A stretch of DNA of 52,602 nucleotides, taken from NCBI GenBank assembly GCA_002170535.1, contig NHDW01000006.1, forward strand, positions 199,983 to 252,584, read 5' to 3'. The notes beneath the pieces were generated by a model, which saw only the letters and a program-made list of their open reading frames with translations, was not told the DNA's origin and ran no database searches. The number at the start of each line of letters is the position of its first letter. Position 1 is the stretch's first letter. This DNA is from Methylococcaceae bacterium TMED69. Its GTDB lineage: Bacteria > Pseudomonadota > Gammaproteobacteria > Ga0077536. Shown piece after piece: positions 9,827 to 38,911 of the stretch. The translations under genes were made by a program, and so were the position numbers.

Positions 9827-9901
9827 TGGCAGGGGCACAGGGAATCGAACCCTGAATGGCGGAACCAAAATCCGCAGTGTTGCCAATTACACTATGCCCC
9901 A
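9827..9901 (-). tRNA. tRNA-Gln (TTG)
   Basis: TGGGGCAT...GCGGATTTTGGTTCCGC...GGTTCGATTCC...; encoded CCA. Confidence 0.85.
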
Positions 9902-9979: not shown

Positions 9980-10147
9980 TCATTTACCTTGTCCCCTATA
10001 CTTCTTTCTATATAGTTTAGAAGGTCTGGATCCATTTTTGCCTCCACCCTTGGAACCATAAATAGTTCTAGAGCTTAGTCCCTGCCTTGTCTTCTTTGGG
10101 CCGTTCTGGTTTCTCTTGTTTGAGTTGTTTACTCTTGCTTTAGCCAT
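9980..10147 (-). CDS. 55-aa highly basic protein
   Basis: Own translation: MAKARVNNSNKRNQNGPKKTRQGLSSRTIYGSKGGGKNGSRPSKLYRKKYRGQGK; GGAGG RBS upstream; below the ORF-track length cutoff. Confidence 0.7.
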   Translation of the reverse strand: MAKARVNNSNKRNQNGPKKTRQGLSSRTIYGSKGGGKNGSRPSKLYRKKYRGQGK

Positions 10148-10187: not shown

Positions 10188-10281
10188 TGGCTGGAGAGGA
10201 AGGATTCGAACCTCCAAGTTATAACGTTGTTATAACACCGTCGAGACAGGACGGCGCGTCTGCCAATTTCGCCACTCCCCA
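10188..10281 (-). tRNA. Type-II (long variable arm) tRNA, anticodon read as GTC
   Basis: Cloverleaf with U1-A72, G73-CCA, anticodon arm CCGTC-CTGTCTC-GACGG, variable arm GTTATAAC-AAC-GTTATAAC. Confidence 0.7.
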
Positions 10282-10284
10282 AAA

Positions 10285-10361
10285 TGGCTGCCCCTCGCGG
10301 ACTCGAACCGCGGACTCGCTGATTAACAGTCAGCTGCTCTAACCAACTGAGCTAAGGGGCA
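10285..10361 (-). tRNA. tRNA-Asn (GTT)
   Basis: TGCCCCT/AGGGGCA acceptor, CTGACTGTTAATCAG anticodon arm, CCA encoded. Confidence 0.9.
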
Positions 10362-10375
10362 ATTCTTTTTCTATG

Positions 10376-10453
10376 GTTGGCCCGGTGGGAATTGAACCCA
10401 CGACACATGGTATATAAGACCACTGCTCTTACCCCTGAGCTACGGGCCGGCAA
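10376..10453 (-). tRNA. tRNA-Ile (TAT)
   Basis: GTGGT-CTTATAT-ACCAT anticodon arm; GTGGGTTCAATTCCCAC T-arm; CCA encoded. Confidence 0.8.
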
Positions 10454-26966: not shown

Positions 26967-27227
26967 CTAATATCTTTTGTTTTTATATTGATTAGGCTGT
27001 ATAACATCTTCTCTTTTAGGAAATTTGTCGCCTAATCTTGGACTAAGATCCTTGCTTTTTGGCTCTATCTCTTTTTTGATCTCTTCCGTTATCTTTCTGT
27101 AAGTAAACATTCCACCTTTCACTACTGCAAAAGCAGCAAGATATATCATAAAGAACAGAAGACATGTTAGAAATATAACTAACACGACCGGTATAATTGG
27201 TTCCCACATATTAATATCTGTATTCAT
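26967..27227 (-). CDS. Small membrane protein
   Basis: [34 protein letters not shown]. Confidence 0.55.
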
Positions 27228-28515
27228 CTGACTTATACGGTCCGAAAATAGGAACATTAATGTATTCTGCTTGGTGAGGCTTTAATGTTTCTAATTTTGC
27301 GTTTATATGATTTAAGTGAAGAGCTGCCACTTCTTCATCCAATGTTTTTGGCAAGACGTAAACCTTGTTTTCGTAATTTTTTGAATTGTGAAACATTTCA
27401 ATTTGGGCCAAAACTTGATTTGTAAAAGAGCAGGACATTACAAAGCTTGGATGACCTGTTGCGCATCCTAAGTTCACTAGTCTTCCTTCTGCTAATAAAA
27501 TTATGTTTTTTCCGGCTACCTCATAGCAGTCGACTTGAGGCTTAATATTTGTTTTTTCGCAATGCGCGTCCAGCCAGGCAACATCAATCTCGTTATCAAA
27601 GTGTCCGATGTTACAAACAATAGTGTTGTCATTCATTTCGCAAAAATGTTCATCTCTGACCACGTCTCGATTTCCTGTAGCTGTTACCACAATGTTTGCT
27701 TCTTTAATTGCGTCTGTCATTCTCATAACCTGAAAGCCATCCATGGCAGCCTGTAGGGCGCAGATCGGATCAATCTCTGTTACAATAACTCTACAACCGG
27801 CTGAAGCAAGCGATGCTGCAGAACCTTTTCCAACATCTCCATATCCTGCAACGACAGCAACCTTACCAGCCATCATGATATCTGTTGCTCTACGAATGGC
27901 ATCTACACAAGATTCCTTGCAGCCATACTTGTTGTCAAATTTTGATTTTGTGACAGAATCATTAACGTTTATTGCGGGAAAAGGAAGAATTTTATCACTC
28001 TCAAATTCTCTTAACCTTAATACTCCAGTCGTAGTCTCTTCTGTTACGCCAATAATATCTCCGCAAATTTCTGGATATTTCTCGATAAGGTGCTTTGTTA
28101 AATCCCCACCATCATCTAATATCATGTTTGGACTAGTCCAATTACCTTCGTGGTTATCAAACTTAATAACTTCGTCTAGGCACCGTTCATAATCATCCTC
28201 TGACATTCCTTTCCAAGCAAAAACAGGAATGTGCTTATTTGCTGTATATGCCGCAGCATGATCTTGGGTTGAAAATATATTGCATGTCATCCAGCGGACA
28301 TCTGCTCCAAGTTCAACAAGGGTGTCAATTAAAACTGCGGTTTGAATTGTCATATGTAAGCAGCCGGCGATCTTTGCACCTTTTAAAGGTTTATCAGCAC
28401 CATATTTCTCTTTTAGAGCTATTAAACCAGGCATTTCAGATTCTGCTAACAAAACTTCTTTTGCTCCCCATTCTGATAGTTTTATATCTTTAATTTTGTA
28501 GTCTTTAAAATCCAT
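27211..28515 (-). CDS. ahcY: S-adenosylhomocysteine hydrolase
   Basis: [34 protein letters not shown], full length 434 aa. Confidence 0.95.
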
Positions 28516-28518
28516 TTT

Positions 28519-31500
28519 TTACTCCTGTTCTAAATGGCTTCTGTATTTTTTAAAAAGTTCATTTCTTTTCTGTAGATCATCTAAATATTCTTTTGGAAGC
28601 TTGGTGATGCCAAAATATTTAGATTCAGAGCTTGCAAAATACCATCCACATATTGCTGCTTTTGGTATCATTGTTAAACCATCTGTTAGTTTAACTTCGT
28701 TTTTTATTCCAAGCCAATCTACAATTTTAATTTTTTGAGTGTGATCCGGGCAAGCTGGGTATCCAGGAGCAGGACGGATTCCTTTGTAAGATTCTGATAT
28801 TAAATCTTTGTTATCAAAGTGTTCCTCGCTTTCAATATATTTCCAGTGTTTTATTCGGACTTGTTGGTGCAACCACTCTGCTGTTGCCTCGGCAAACCTG
28901 TCACCAAGAGATTGAACCATAATGTTTCTATAATCATCTTGCTCGTTTTTGAATTCTTTCGCTTTTTCATCTATTCCGTTTACCCAAATTGCAAATGTTC
29001 CAAGCCAATCTTCTTCGTGTAAAAAATCACTCAAGCTCATATTTTTTGTAGACGATTTTTTTTGCGGCTGGCGTAAAAAATTGAATGTTTTTTCTTTGCC
29101 CTCCCTGTAAACGGTTACGTCCTCGTTGTTCTTCTTACATCTATCAATTGAAAATGAATACGAAATTGAAACTGTTTTCGACAGTTCGTCAATCATTCTA
29201 TTCGCGTCTTCTAATAAGTTTATTCCAACTTCCTCAGAAAGCTGCTTTGGCTTTAGTCCCCAAGTCATTGCAAACGGAACCCAGTCAATATAATCTCTTA
29301 TTTCTTCGATGCTGGCCACGTCACGGTTTATTCCAGTGGATGCTGGTTTGACAGCTTCAGACTCTAGGCGATACCGATTACCGCGAGAAATCTCTAAAGG
29401 AAAGTATTTTCTATTATTAGGCTTTCTTGAATTTCTAATCTTTTCATACTTCTTTATGATTTCTTTAAAAGCTTCGTCGTTTGTGAGAACATTATTTACT
29501 TCAGATACTGCAACGCTAGCGTTTCTAATATACACAGTGTTCTTGTATTTCGGAGCAATCCTTGTAGCAGTATGGACCTTTGATGTCGTTGCTCCGCCTA
29601 TCAATAAAGGAACTGGATAGTTTTCTTTTTCGAGCGCTGCTGCAACTTTTACCATTTCGTCTAGACTAGGAGTAATAAGCCCACTTAACCCGATCGCATC
29701 AACTTTATGACTTATTGCCTCTTCGATTATTTTTTCTGTTGGTACCATAACTCCTAAATCTATAACTTCATATCCGTTGCACTGAAGAACAACACCAACA
29801 ATATTCTTTCCAATATCGTGGACATCCCCTTTTACAGTAGCCATTAATATTTTCCCTCGAGACGCTGACCCTCCATCTTTTTCCATATATGGCTCTAACC
29901 AAGCTACGGCTTTTTTCATAACTCGGGCTGATTTAACTACCTGAGGCAGAAACATTTTTCCAGACCCAAAAAGATCTCCAACTATGTTCATGCCGTCCAT
30001 TAGCGGACCTTCAACTATCTCTATGGCATTAGGATTTTTATTGTAACACTCCTCAACATCTTCTAAAATATATCTGTCAATTCCATTTACCAGAGCGTGT
30101 TCTATTCTTTTCGCGGGTGATTCTGCTCTCCACTCTTCGTTTGTTTTCCTTTCTCCAGATTTTTTACCACTGGTTTCTTGTGCTAATTCTAGCAAGAGTG
30201 AGCTTGCGTCTGGGTTTTTGTTTAGGATTGCATCCTCTACTATTTTTCTGTGTCCCTTGTCAATGCTTTCGTATATTGTTAATTGCCCCGCATTGACTAT
30301 TGCCATATCAAGACCAGCTTTCACGGCATGATACAAGAAAACAGAGTGCATTATTTCCCTTACATAAGGATTTCCTCTAAAAGAGAAAGATAGGTTGGAC
30401 AAACCTCCTGACACTTTGGCTCCTGGAAGTTGTTTCTTTATCCACTCTGTTGCGTTAATAAAGTCTACAGCATAATTGTCGTGTTCTGATATTCCTGTTG
30501 CAATTGCAAATATATTTGGATCAAATATAATGTCGCTTGGAGCAATTCCGTTTTCTACCAATAGCCAATACGCTCTAGAGCATATCTCTTTTTTTCTTTC
30601 GAGGCTGTCCGCTTGCCCACTTTCATCAAAAGCCATTACTACAAAAGCGTGGCCGCATGAGACGATTTCTTTTGCCTGTTCTAGAAAACTTTGTTCTCCC
30701 TCTTTTAAAGAAATTGAATTTACAATTCCCCTCCCCTGGAGCCATCTCATGCATGTTCTTAAAATATCCCATTTAGAAGAATCTACCATAATTGGAACAC
30801 GAGATATCTCTGGTTCAGATGCTATTAATTTTATAAAGTTTAGCATCTCCTCCTTTGAATCAAGAAGTCCGTCATCCATGTTGATGTCTATTATTTGCGC
30901 GCCATTGGCTATCTGTCTTTTCGCTATCTGCAAGGCATCGTCATACCTTTTTTCCTTGATACATTTTCTAAACCTTGATGAGCCAGTAACATTTGTTCTT
31001 TCGCCAATGTTGATGAAATTTTTTCCATCGCAGGAATATTCCTCTAAACCAGATAGCTTTAAGGTTTTTTCAAAAGGAACGCGAGTTGATTTTGGCTGCA
31101 TCTTTTTTACTGTCTTTGCAATTTTCGAAATGTGTTCAGGAGTAGTTCCACAGCAGCCTCCAATAATGTTTAAACCACTGTTTTTAGCCATTTTCCTAAT
31201 CATAGCCGCCATTTCATCGGGAGACTGGTCGTATTCTCCTAGCTCATTGGGCAAACCAGCGTTTGGATGTGCTGAAATGGCACATGAGCTTACTTCTGAT
31301 AACCTGGAGACATATGGTGCCATCTGTTCTGTACCTAGAGCGCAATTTAGACCAACCGACACTGGGTTTGCATGTTTGACGGATTGCCAAAATGCCTCTA
31401 CAGTCTGACCAGAAAGCGTCCTTCCAGATGCATCAACTATGGTTCCTGAAATCATAAGAGGAATTGTTTTTGAAATACTTCTAACTGCTTCAATTGCGGC

Positions 31501-32013
31501 TTTTGCGTTCAGAGTATCAAATATTGTTTCAATCATTATTAGGTCACAACCACCCTTTATTAGGTTTTCAGCTGCGGCTCTATAGCTTTTAAAAAGACCA
31601 TTATATGTAATATTTCTAAAAGCGGGATCCAGCACATCTGGAGACATTGACAGGGTCCTTGATGTCGGCCCTAGTACTCCTGCAACCAACGCATCGTATT
31701 TGTTAGCAATAGTTCTTGCCAACTTTGCGGCTTTGTAATTAAGCAAATCTATTGCTTCGTTACTTAGGTCATAATCTTCTGCAGAAACATAATTCGCGTT
31801 AAAAGTATTTGTTTCAATGATATCTGCACCAGCTTTTAAATAGTCCTCGTGAATAGACTTTATTACCTCTGGGCAAGTCAAACAAAGTATATCATTGAAT
31901 CCCTCACAGTTTTTTTCCTCGTACGAGAAAAAGGACGGATCAACTTTTCTCTTTTGTATCTCCGTTCCCATTGCTCCATCGAGTATGTAAATCTTTTTAT
32001 TAAAATCTACCAT
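28519..32013 (-). CDS. metH: Cobalamin-dependent methionine synthase
   Basis: [55 protein letters not shown]; start trimmed to MVDFNKK. Confidence 0.95.
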
Positions 32014-32459
32014 TCTTCTTTTTGACCAACCCAATCTTGAAACTTGTCTTCTCCACCCCTTATTCCCCAGTCTGAGTCGACAGTAAGCTTTGATGATATT
32101 CCACCTCTCGGGTTGCATACTATTACCAGCCTGAGTCGAGTCGGTTCGTATGCGCTCATCATGTCATCGTAAATCACGTTAATGATTCTTTCGTATGAAT
32201 AAATCTGTGACCTAAAGGCAAAGAAGTATTCTTTGAGAGATTTAAGCTCAATAACTTTGTCACCTGGATAAAACGTGATATACAACTGTGCAAAATCTGG
32301 CTGGGCCCTAACCCCTTCAAAAGTAAGTTCCGGAACCTTCATTTTTATTTCATAGGCTTCCCTAGAAGGATTTGGAATTGATTTAAGAATGTGCCTATTT
32401 TTTTGCCAATTTCTTTTCCGTCTATTTCTGCCAATTGGAGGCGTTGTTTCTTCGCTCAT
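32007..32459 (-). CDS. QueF-like (T-fold) protein
   Basis: [32 protein letters not shown]...NPRGGIS; the usual CPVTG Cys is replaced. Confidence 0.7.
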
Positions 32460-37346: not shown

Positions 37347-37661
37347 TTAACCTATTGATTTGATTTCTGCACAGATTTTTTGATATTTTTTAATGTTTTC
37401 CATCATTTCTGGAATGACTTTATCTAGACCTTTTGGAGTTAGAATCCATTTACCTCTTTTTGGACTCTGCCAATATTTATTTGGGTATCCTCGATGGTTT
37501 TTTCTGCCGTAAAAATAACTTACAGCCCAACCTCGCTCAGAAAACCCATCTAAATTTCCGTGTTTGCTTAAATACAAAGCTCGACGGATATCTGCCCCAC
37601 AACAACCTGGAAAACAAAAAATATAAGTCGCAATAAAATTAATATTATTTGTTTTTTTCAT
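37347..37661 (-). CDS. Hypothetical protein
   Basis: MKKTNNINFIATYIFCFPGCCGADIRRALYLSKHG. Confidence 0.5.
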   Translation of the reverse strand: MKKTNNINFIATYIFCFPGCCGADIRRALYLSKHGNLDGFSERGWAVSYFYGRKNHRGYPNKYWQSPKRGKWILTPKGLDKVIPEMMENIKKYQKICAEIKSIG

Positions 37662-38568
37662 GCAGCCCTCTGTATCTAAGAACCGCCAGTTCTTTGGCTT
37701 TTGCTTCGATGACAACATCGATATCTAGACCGTGAGGATTAATGTAACCAGAAACATATTTTGAATGTGCACGGAAAACCGCTTTTGGGTTGTCAACCTG
37801 AGCCGTCTCGGAGTAGTGTGTGCACGGTTTGTGCCCTGCCCACGTTGAAGCAGCTAGATGAAGCGCCGTTTTTTCATCATCCTGACCAGGATGACACTGG
37901 TGATGATGATAATCGAACACAATAGGAATTCCGGAGCGTGAGTAAAATAGCTCATATAATTCTCTAGTTGAATAAAGGTTTGGACGATCATCGTTCTCCA
38001 GTGTAAGACGAGAAAGAACGGCGTTAGAAAGCCTAGAAGAGTTACTAAGCCAACGATCAGCAGCAGCCTGTTTGTCACCGTAAGCACCTCCTACATGAAT
38101 GTTGATCTTGGCCATTGGAGACCTAGGTTGGTGCATATAGTCCATAATCTTACCGTGTATTTCCAATTCGTGTAACGATTTTTCAACAACGCTTTGGTTT
38201 TTTGCGGCCAGCACTGTAAAAGCGCCGGGGTGAAACGACAGCCGAATGTCGTTTTCAATAGCAAACTTGCCGCACTGGTCTAGCAGAGACTTGCATGCAT
38301 TCCAGTTAGGTAGATCTTCTAACCTGTACTCTGAACACCATGGAGCCATAGAGGATGACATTCTGTATACAGATATATTGTTTTTGACATTCCATGGAAG
38401 AATGCGCCTAACTGCTAGTAAGTTTTGTTCGAATAGCTCGCCGACGTGCGGCAAACCTTTTTTGAGAAAAGTTGCTTTTCGGCAAGTTCTGCCGACAATT
38501 GCTTTTTCTGTTTCTGCTAGTGTCATGTTGATACACGCGTAGCCAAGATTAGTGGATCCTGTTTTCAT
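37645..38568 (-). CDS. UV damage endonuclease UvdE-like
   Basis: MKTGSTNLGYACINMTL...FHPGAFTVLA...INIHVGGAYGDK...LTLENDD...VFDYHHHQCHPG. Confidence 0.88.
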   Translation of the reverse strand: MKTGSTNLGYACINMTLAETEKAIVGRTCRKATFLKKGLPHVGELFEQNLLAVRRILPWNVKNNISVYRMSSSMAPWCSEYRLEDLPNWNACKSLLDQCGKFAIENDIRLSFHPGAFTVLAAKNQSVVEKSLHELEIHGKIMDYMHQPRSPMAKINIHVGGAYGDKQAAADRWLSNSSRLSNAVLSRLTLENDDRPNLYSTRELYELFYSRSGIPIVFDYHHHQCHPGQDDEKTALHLAASTWAGHKPCTHYSETAQVDNPKAVFRAHSKYVSGYINPHGLDIDVVIEAKAKELAVLRYRGLHEKNK

Positions 38569-38662
38569 TAATACTCCTGAGGTTGTATACTTATTATATA
38601 GAAATATTCTATATTTTATAATATAATTTATAAGTTGTTTAGCTACACAGGTTTTGATAAAA

Positions 38663-38911
38663 ATGCCATACAAACAAAAAGGCTCAAAAAAATGCACGCA
38701 ATCTGATGGTACTAAAGGTTCATACAAGACCGTCAAAAAGGACGGAACCACGCGTTGTTATAAATCAAAAAAACAATACGATGCCGCAATGGCATGGGCT
38801 CACGAGTCAGAAGACAAATCAGATGAACAGACTGATAAATTCATCGCTTTACTCGAAGAGATAAATCTACGAGTTTTTATTAGAAACATTTTAAGAATCG
38901 AGAAAAGTTAA
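38663..38911 (+). CDS. Small basic protein with C-terminal tag-like helix
   Basis: MPYKQKGSKKCTQSDG...ends LRVFIRNILRIEKS. Confidence 0.6.
   Translation: MPYKQKGSKKCTQSDGTKGSYKTVKKDGTTRCYKSKKQYDAAMAWAHESEDKSDEQTDKFIALLEEINLRVFIRNILRIEKS

Follow-up and report, generated by a model that had tools for sequence, protein, structure and literature searches.

Type-II tRNA-like RNAs with a CUGUCYC anticodon loop form a large and apparently undescribed family in many bacteria and phages. Judged by their sequences, members retain the features used for charging with aspartate, have exchanged the end pair of tRNA-Asp for that of tRNA-Asn, and appear to have given up features required for decoding. One member lies on the reverse strand of the window, the 52,602-nucleotide stretch of DNA analysed here. 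Our preferred reading, to which we assign a likelihood somewhat below even, is that it is a phage-borne, shortened copy of an RNA built for charging and not for codon reading, on which Asp would be loaded and then amidated to Asn.

ARAGORN calls window positions 10188–10281 (−) as tRNA-Asp(gtc), and the Rfam tRNA model matches 10191–10281 with 40.7 bits, above its gathering score of 29. The 91-nt body (10191–10281), which is also recognised by the two family models R1 and R2, forms a complete type-II cloverleaf with 7/7 acceptor, 5/5 anticodon stem and 5/5 T stem pairs. The strand reads UGGGGAG UG GCG AAAUUGGCAGA CGC G CCGUC CUGUCUC GACGG U and continues as GUUAUAAC AAC GUUAUAAC UU GGAGG UUCGAAU CCUUC CUCUCCA G CCA. 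All of its parts lie on the reverse strand. The acceptor stem is made of UGGGGAG (10275–10281), in which U1 pairs with A72 and G2 with C71, and of CUCUCCA, which is followed by the discriminator G73 (10191–10198); the CCA 3′ end is encoded (10188–10190). The D arm, GCG-AAAUUGGCAGA-CGC (10256–10272), is Leu-like, contains the family signature GGCAGAC and has G10 within its stem. The anticodon loop, CUGUCUC (10243–10249), holds U33, the GUC triplet (10247–10245), U37 (10244) and C38 (10243), whilst the variable arm (10218–10236) is an 8-bp hairpin, GUUAUAAC-AAC-GUUAUAAC, without the AUAAA/CUAA domain of the cellular copies. The type-I cloverleaf with a short variable loop, a trait of ordinary tRNA-Asp, is not found in the window RNA. 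An earlier note on this DNA had described a type-II tRNA with a GUC loop, U37 and an 8-bp variable arm, and every detail holds by sequence, ARAGORN and Rfam; the G2-C71, G10, C38 and G73 that it listed are likewise present.

The window RNA is part of a tRNA cluster on the same strand, called by ARAGORN, which comprises a tRNA-Asn(GUU) 3 nt upstream (10285–10361), likewise with U1-A72 and G73, a tRNA-Ile(UAU) (10374–10449) and a tRNA-Gln(UUG) (9827–9901). Between the window RNA and tRNA-Gln there is a small, very basic ORF of 54 aa (9986–10147, −; MAKARVNNSNKRNQ...), with a clear Shine-Dalgarno site. The window belongs to a 305,838-base contig within a 1.97-Mb MAG. The tail sheath, portal, helicase and tail fibre proteins of this contig of about 306 kb, its dense one-sided coding, and GroEL relatives in large viral contigs identify it as a phage binned with the bacterial MAG, whose ordinary tRNA-Asp sits on another contig. 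Shine-Dalgarno sites are found at 29% in this phage compared with 7% in shuffles, and Bacteroidota promoters are not in excess in it; a host outside the Bacteroidota is therefore probable. The two ends of the contig carry similar large ORFs (1080 aa), which suggests terminal redundancy or duplicated genes. Elsewhere in the window, an S-adenosylhomocysteine hydrolase (27211–28515) adjoins a B12-dependent methionine synthase (28519–32118), both with strong Pfam matches, a methionine-cycle pair (27211–32118) which seems unusual in a phage; a phage-encoded UvdE-type UV endonuclease is found at 37645–38751.

The first search pattern, a Leu-like D arm combined with a CUGUC loop, returned 7, then 18, viral stretches together with several Bacteroidota chromosomes, and a relaxed pattern returned 84 viral stretches; some of the viral contigs in these counts may be misclassified fragments. 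U1-A72 and G73, although not part of the search pattern, occur in all true members. Fifteen diverse members share this cloverleaf; in their alignment 96.9% of cells are paired, and both sides have changed in 26 of 29 pairs, a covariation that was reached by 0 of 500 shuffles. The window copy scores 92.1 bits with model R1. With R2, which was built without the window copy and without its nearest relative, that of phage L081, it scores 90.5 bits (E ~4e-22) compared with at most 64.8 bits for any ordinary tRNA tested; the runner-up scores in the family models belong to tRNA-Leu. Of the matches in the 81 sources searched after the relaxed pattern, 79 reached at least 80 bits.

Genome surveys were made with R1, a model trained on the family itself, and each order sampled was that of the named locus taken as centre. 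At E≤1e-17, 134 of 194 genomes (~70%) in the order to which a Cytophagales genome belongs had copies, as did 27 of 296 genomes in the phylum sample; at E≤1e-15, copies were present in 16 of 196 genomes from the order of a Cryomorphaceae genome and in 38 of 99 from the order of another Bacteroidota MAG. The copies are frequently in tandem, up to six, and one member lies within a public 636-kb uncultured phage record. The 200 genomes searched from the phylum of the window's own MAG gave no match except the window contig. Direct blastn of the window tRNA gave no match in isolated phages or in plasmids, and detection of the family required pattern and covariance searches; the long forms are often missed by ARAGORN. 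No Rfam family other than tRNA matched at its gathering score, and a long cellular copy, compared with Rfam at E≤10, gave nothing above chance level. We found no description of the family in Rfam or in the open-access literature, and an earlier account elsewhere is possible. The conserved RNA of most sampled Cytophagales, and of many viral contigs, thus seems to have gone unannotated so far.

Amongst the features required for decoding are a purine at position 37, which the family has given up, and U33, which it has given up in part. Of 120 unique family copies, 118 have a pyrimidine at position 37 (108 U, 10 C) and 2 have A; U33 is kept in 107, and the 13 that have lost it are cellular. The end of the acceptor and much of the loop are by comparison almost fixed, with U1-A72 and G73 in 120/120 each, and G2-C71, U35, C36 and C38 in 119/120 each; G34 is present in 96 copies and missing in 24. 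The 61 unique viral sequences, window copy included, have U33 in 61/61 and G34 in 60/61. The window copy carries the whole signature set of the family (U1-A72, G73, U35-C36, pyrimidine 37, C38 and GGCAGAC), together with an encoded CCA, which is absent from most family copies. Bacterial Asp identity resides in G73, G34, U35, C36 and C38, with a minor contribution from G2-C71; G1-C72 is strictly conserved in bacterial tRNA-Asp, whilst the amidotransferase can act on Asp-tRNA-Asn owing to U1-A72, which is a GatCAB determinant (PMC9976931). The proposal that the RNA is identity-switched is a fair one, as U35, C36, C38, G73 and G2-C71 are each kept in at least 119 of the 120 copies. The pair U1-A72, which was absent from that proposal, departs from bacterial tRNA-Asp and matches recognition of tRNA-Asn by GatCAB.

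In the variable arm, an AUAAA/CUAA internal-loop domain is present in 106 of 107 cellular copies; it is optional in viral members and does not define them, since 7 of the 13 viral copies in that set are without it. In the window copy, in L081 and in a few more, the arm is only a plain hairpin, whilst many viral and some cellular copies have a longer arm with a near-invariant cap, GGGUWGACCAC. For 26 sequences, RNAalifold folds the arm into three predicted helices, most of whose pairs show compensatory changes. The variable-arm domain showed no conserved reading frame.

The best matches to the 5′ half are all tRNA-Leu, in agreement with the Leu-like body described earlier, and tRNA-Leu (also type II) shares the D arm and general fold. 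It has A73 as its discriminator, whereas the family has G73, and differs further in the loop, acceptor end and variable arm; the nearest ordinary tRNAs mostly carry the usual GGUAGAC where the family has GGCAGAC. With bacterial tRNA-Asp(GUC) the family shares U35, C36, C38, G73, G2-C71 and mostly G34, which the window copy has, but it is type II, has U1-A72 and not G1-C72, has a pyrimidine at position 37, and is extra to the ordinary tRNA-Asp. U1-A72 and G73 recur in tRNA-dependent Asn synthesis, in which AspRS and GatCAB act on tRNA-Asn, and GatB was found in 20 of 20 genomes; the family differs in its Asp (GUC) and not Asn (GUU) loop, its broken decoding rules, its long variable arm, and in being separate from the decoding tRNA. 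tmRNA likewise combines tRNA-like ends with an added domain, but the family keeps an anticodon arm and has the added domain in the variable arm. The Bacillus cereus tRNA-Other, a pseudo-tRNA, is also a tRNA-like RNA outside translation, although it is a single-lineage element inside a larger regulatory RNA, and is likened here by its description (PMC3399842). The allo-tRNAs and SelC-like tRNAs are natural type-II tRNAs with odd anticodons, though with 8/4 or 9/3 acceptor/T arms compared with 7/5 in the family (PMC7609411).

A Bacteroidota-type promoter (TAnnTTTG) lies upstream of 30 of 86 distinct copies, compared with 2.5 expected. An AsnC/Lrp homologue is present at 43 of 71 cellular loci, always divergent and 123–328 bp upstream; the other 28 are without an AsnC neighbour, and none of the viral loci has an AsnC/Lrp homologue. 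This AsnC-type gene, a regulator of the asparagine-sensing kind, is the only recurrent neighbour that we found. It scores 159 bits with AsnC, 90 with LrpA and 50 with Lrp; for both neighbour proteins tested, AsnC is clearly the better match, ahead of LrpA and Lrp, though it stays below the NCBIfam cut-off, and the closest solved structure is that of AsnC (PDB 2cg4). In E. coli, asnC is divergent from the asparagine synthetase gene asnA with approximately 150 bp between them, a divergent geometry shared by the AsnC-type gene and the family RNA.

An ordinary tRNA-Asp is present in all 20 family-bearing genomes checked, and in one phage alongside the family RNA; GatB, which is common in bacteria generally, was also found in each of the 20 genomes checked. 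In one RNA-bearing genome, read over its whole length, AsnB gave no match at E≤1, AsnA matched only at E=0.043, and no AsnB-like motif pair was found in any frame, whilst AsnRS and AspRS are present and there is no convincing GlnRS. This MAG has 17 of 20 tRNA isotypes, and GuaA was not recovered in full from it; as it is incomplete, the absence of AsnA and AsnB is suggestive only. Non-discriminating AspRS enzymes have a His at a position where the one AspRS that we read has Leu; if this distinction holds, that enzyme would charge tRNA-Asn poorly, and a separate carrier would make sense on those grounds. According to a published survey (PMC4206432), the genera in which AsnRS, GlnRS and GatCAB occur without an asparagine synthetase include Bacteroidetes.

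The divergent AsnC-type neighbour, arranged as in E. coli asnC/asnA, the invariant U1-A72 and G73, the broken decoding rules and the coexistence with an ordinary tRNA-Asp lead us to favour a carrier for the conversion of Asp to Asn, of which we infer the charging, amidation and release steps. AspRS would load Asp by way of U35, C36, C38, G73, G2-C71 and usually G34, and GatCAB would amidate the RNA-bound Asp to Asn owing to U1-A72. A non-purine at position 37, and sometimes a lost U33, would keep this Asn off Asp codons, and the Asn would then be set free from the RNA. In cells, the position next to asnC that asparagine synthetase A (asnA) occupies in E. coli would be filled by the RNA. In the phage, where tRNA-Asn is its neighbour, the RNA would furnish or divert Asn while infection proceeds, giving the host this function or competing for it. 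The general form of this proposal, that in Bacteroidota and phages a dedicated non-decoding tRNA serves as the carrier for conversion of Asp to Asn and replaces asparagine synthetase A in an AsnC-controlled locus, with trimmed phage copies controlling asparagine supply during infection, is put forward more tentatively, as a possibility that may well prove wrong. A tRNA-Asn adjoins the family RNA in two phages, the window phage and L081, which fits the carrier but proves nothing. If the proposal is true, synthesis of an amino acid takes place on an RNA that is dedicated to it and kept out of translation, the source of Asn in bacteria with AsnRS but without AsnA or AsnB is explained, and phage tRNA genes have, beyond codon supply and evasion of defences, a part in metabolism.

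Several observations weigh against the carrier. G34, a strong Asp determinant, is missing in a fifth of the copies (24/120), and no copy has G1-C72, which reportedly aids AspRS in positioning the 3′ end; AspRS is a class II enzyme and could be impeded by the long variable arm. We know of no release step for Asn. GatB in 20/20 genomes is by itself weak evidence, GatB being common, the absence of AsnA and AsnB comes from one incomplete MAG, 28 of 71 loci lack AsnC, and Bacteroidota do not seem to be hosts of the window phage.

A regulatory tRNA-like RNA under AsnC control, for which aminoacylation would not be needed, and in which the C-N-N-U-C-Y-C loop or the variable arm would bind an mRNA or protein, is in our judgement unlikely. 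It would account for the AsnC linkage of the cellular loci, for a large covarying variable-arm domain with its near-invariant cap, and for the variation of position 34, and sometimes 33, whilst UCYC is fixed; however, a 7-bp acceptor with invariant U1-A72 and G73 would then be superfluous, and the window copy has dropped the variable-arm domain, kept the tRNA parts and encodes CCA. We consider it improbable that the RNA is an ordinary decoding tRNA-Asp for phage codon supply with an incidental long variable arm. The GUC anticodon, Asp determinants, encoded CCA, position in a phage tRNA cluster, and retention of U33 and G34 in viral copies are as expected of such a tRNA, but the near-universal pyrimidine 37, the loss of U33 in 13 cellular copies, U1-A72 in place of G1-C72, and the ordinary tRNA-Asp already present in 20/20 cellular genomes and one phage are not.

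Donation of Asp to a non-ribosomal reaction by an Asp-tRNA-dependent ligase or transferase, without amidation, would also explain why charging features are kept and decoding features lost. We regard it as very improbable, as it leaves the invariance of U1-A72 unexplained and no ligase or transferase recurs beside the RNA, where the only recurrent neighbour is of AsnC type. Slightly less probable still is a phage decoy, or a stand-in for tRNAs that anticodon nucleases or comparable defences attack. The location in a phage tRNA cluster agrees with it, and phage tRNAs can counter tRNA-targeting defences (PMC10264068, PMC11555353); a loop decoy, though, would not require a conserved U1-A72 and acceptor, and the decoy suggested in the earlier note, taken as phage-specific, finds no support in a family that is mainly chromosomal in Bacteroidota and widespread there, with its own promoters, an AsnC-type neighbour and no link to nucleases or defence seen. 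The Leu-like D arm might speak for a tRNA-Leu or tRNA-Ser that has become a pseudogene or contains a sequencing error, the latter being the outcome named beforehand as refuting. Both are excluded with near certainty by the recurrence of the same loop, U1-A72 and G73 in more than 100 independent copies with covarying helices.

Near-matches in T5-like, Stenotrophomonas, Mycobacterium and Vibrio phages proved to be tRNA-Leu-like RNAs in which the family loop is absent, and were set aside. Two unannotated stretches with large inserts came up in the searches. One, in Vibrio phage 2.275.O (L296:1498-1631), is a 134-nt tRNA-like RNA close to a YqeY-like gene; the other, in the T5-like phage EscoHU1 (L301:1819-1950), is tRNA-Leu-like and has its insert within the anticodon region. 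A viral contig carries a type-II Ser-like tRNA with an Asn anticodon, GUU (L118:884-968). The L081 phage has a type-II tRNA-Ile(UAU) with a long variable arm (L105:2182-2276) and a tmRNA gene overlapping a permuted-tmRNA match (L081:3960-4367).
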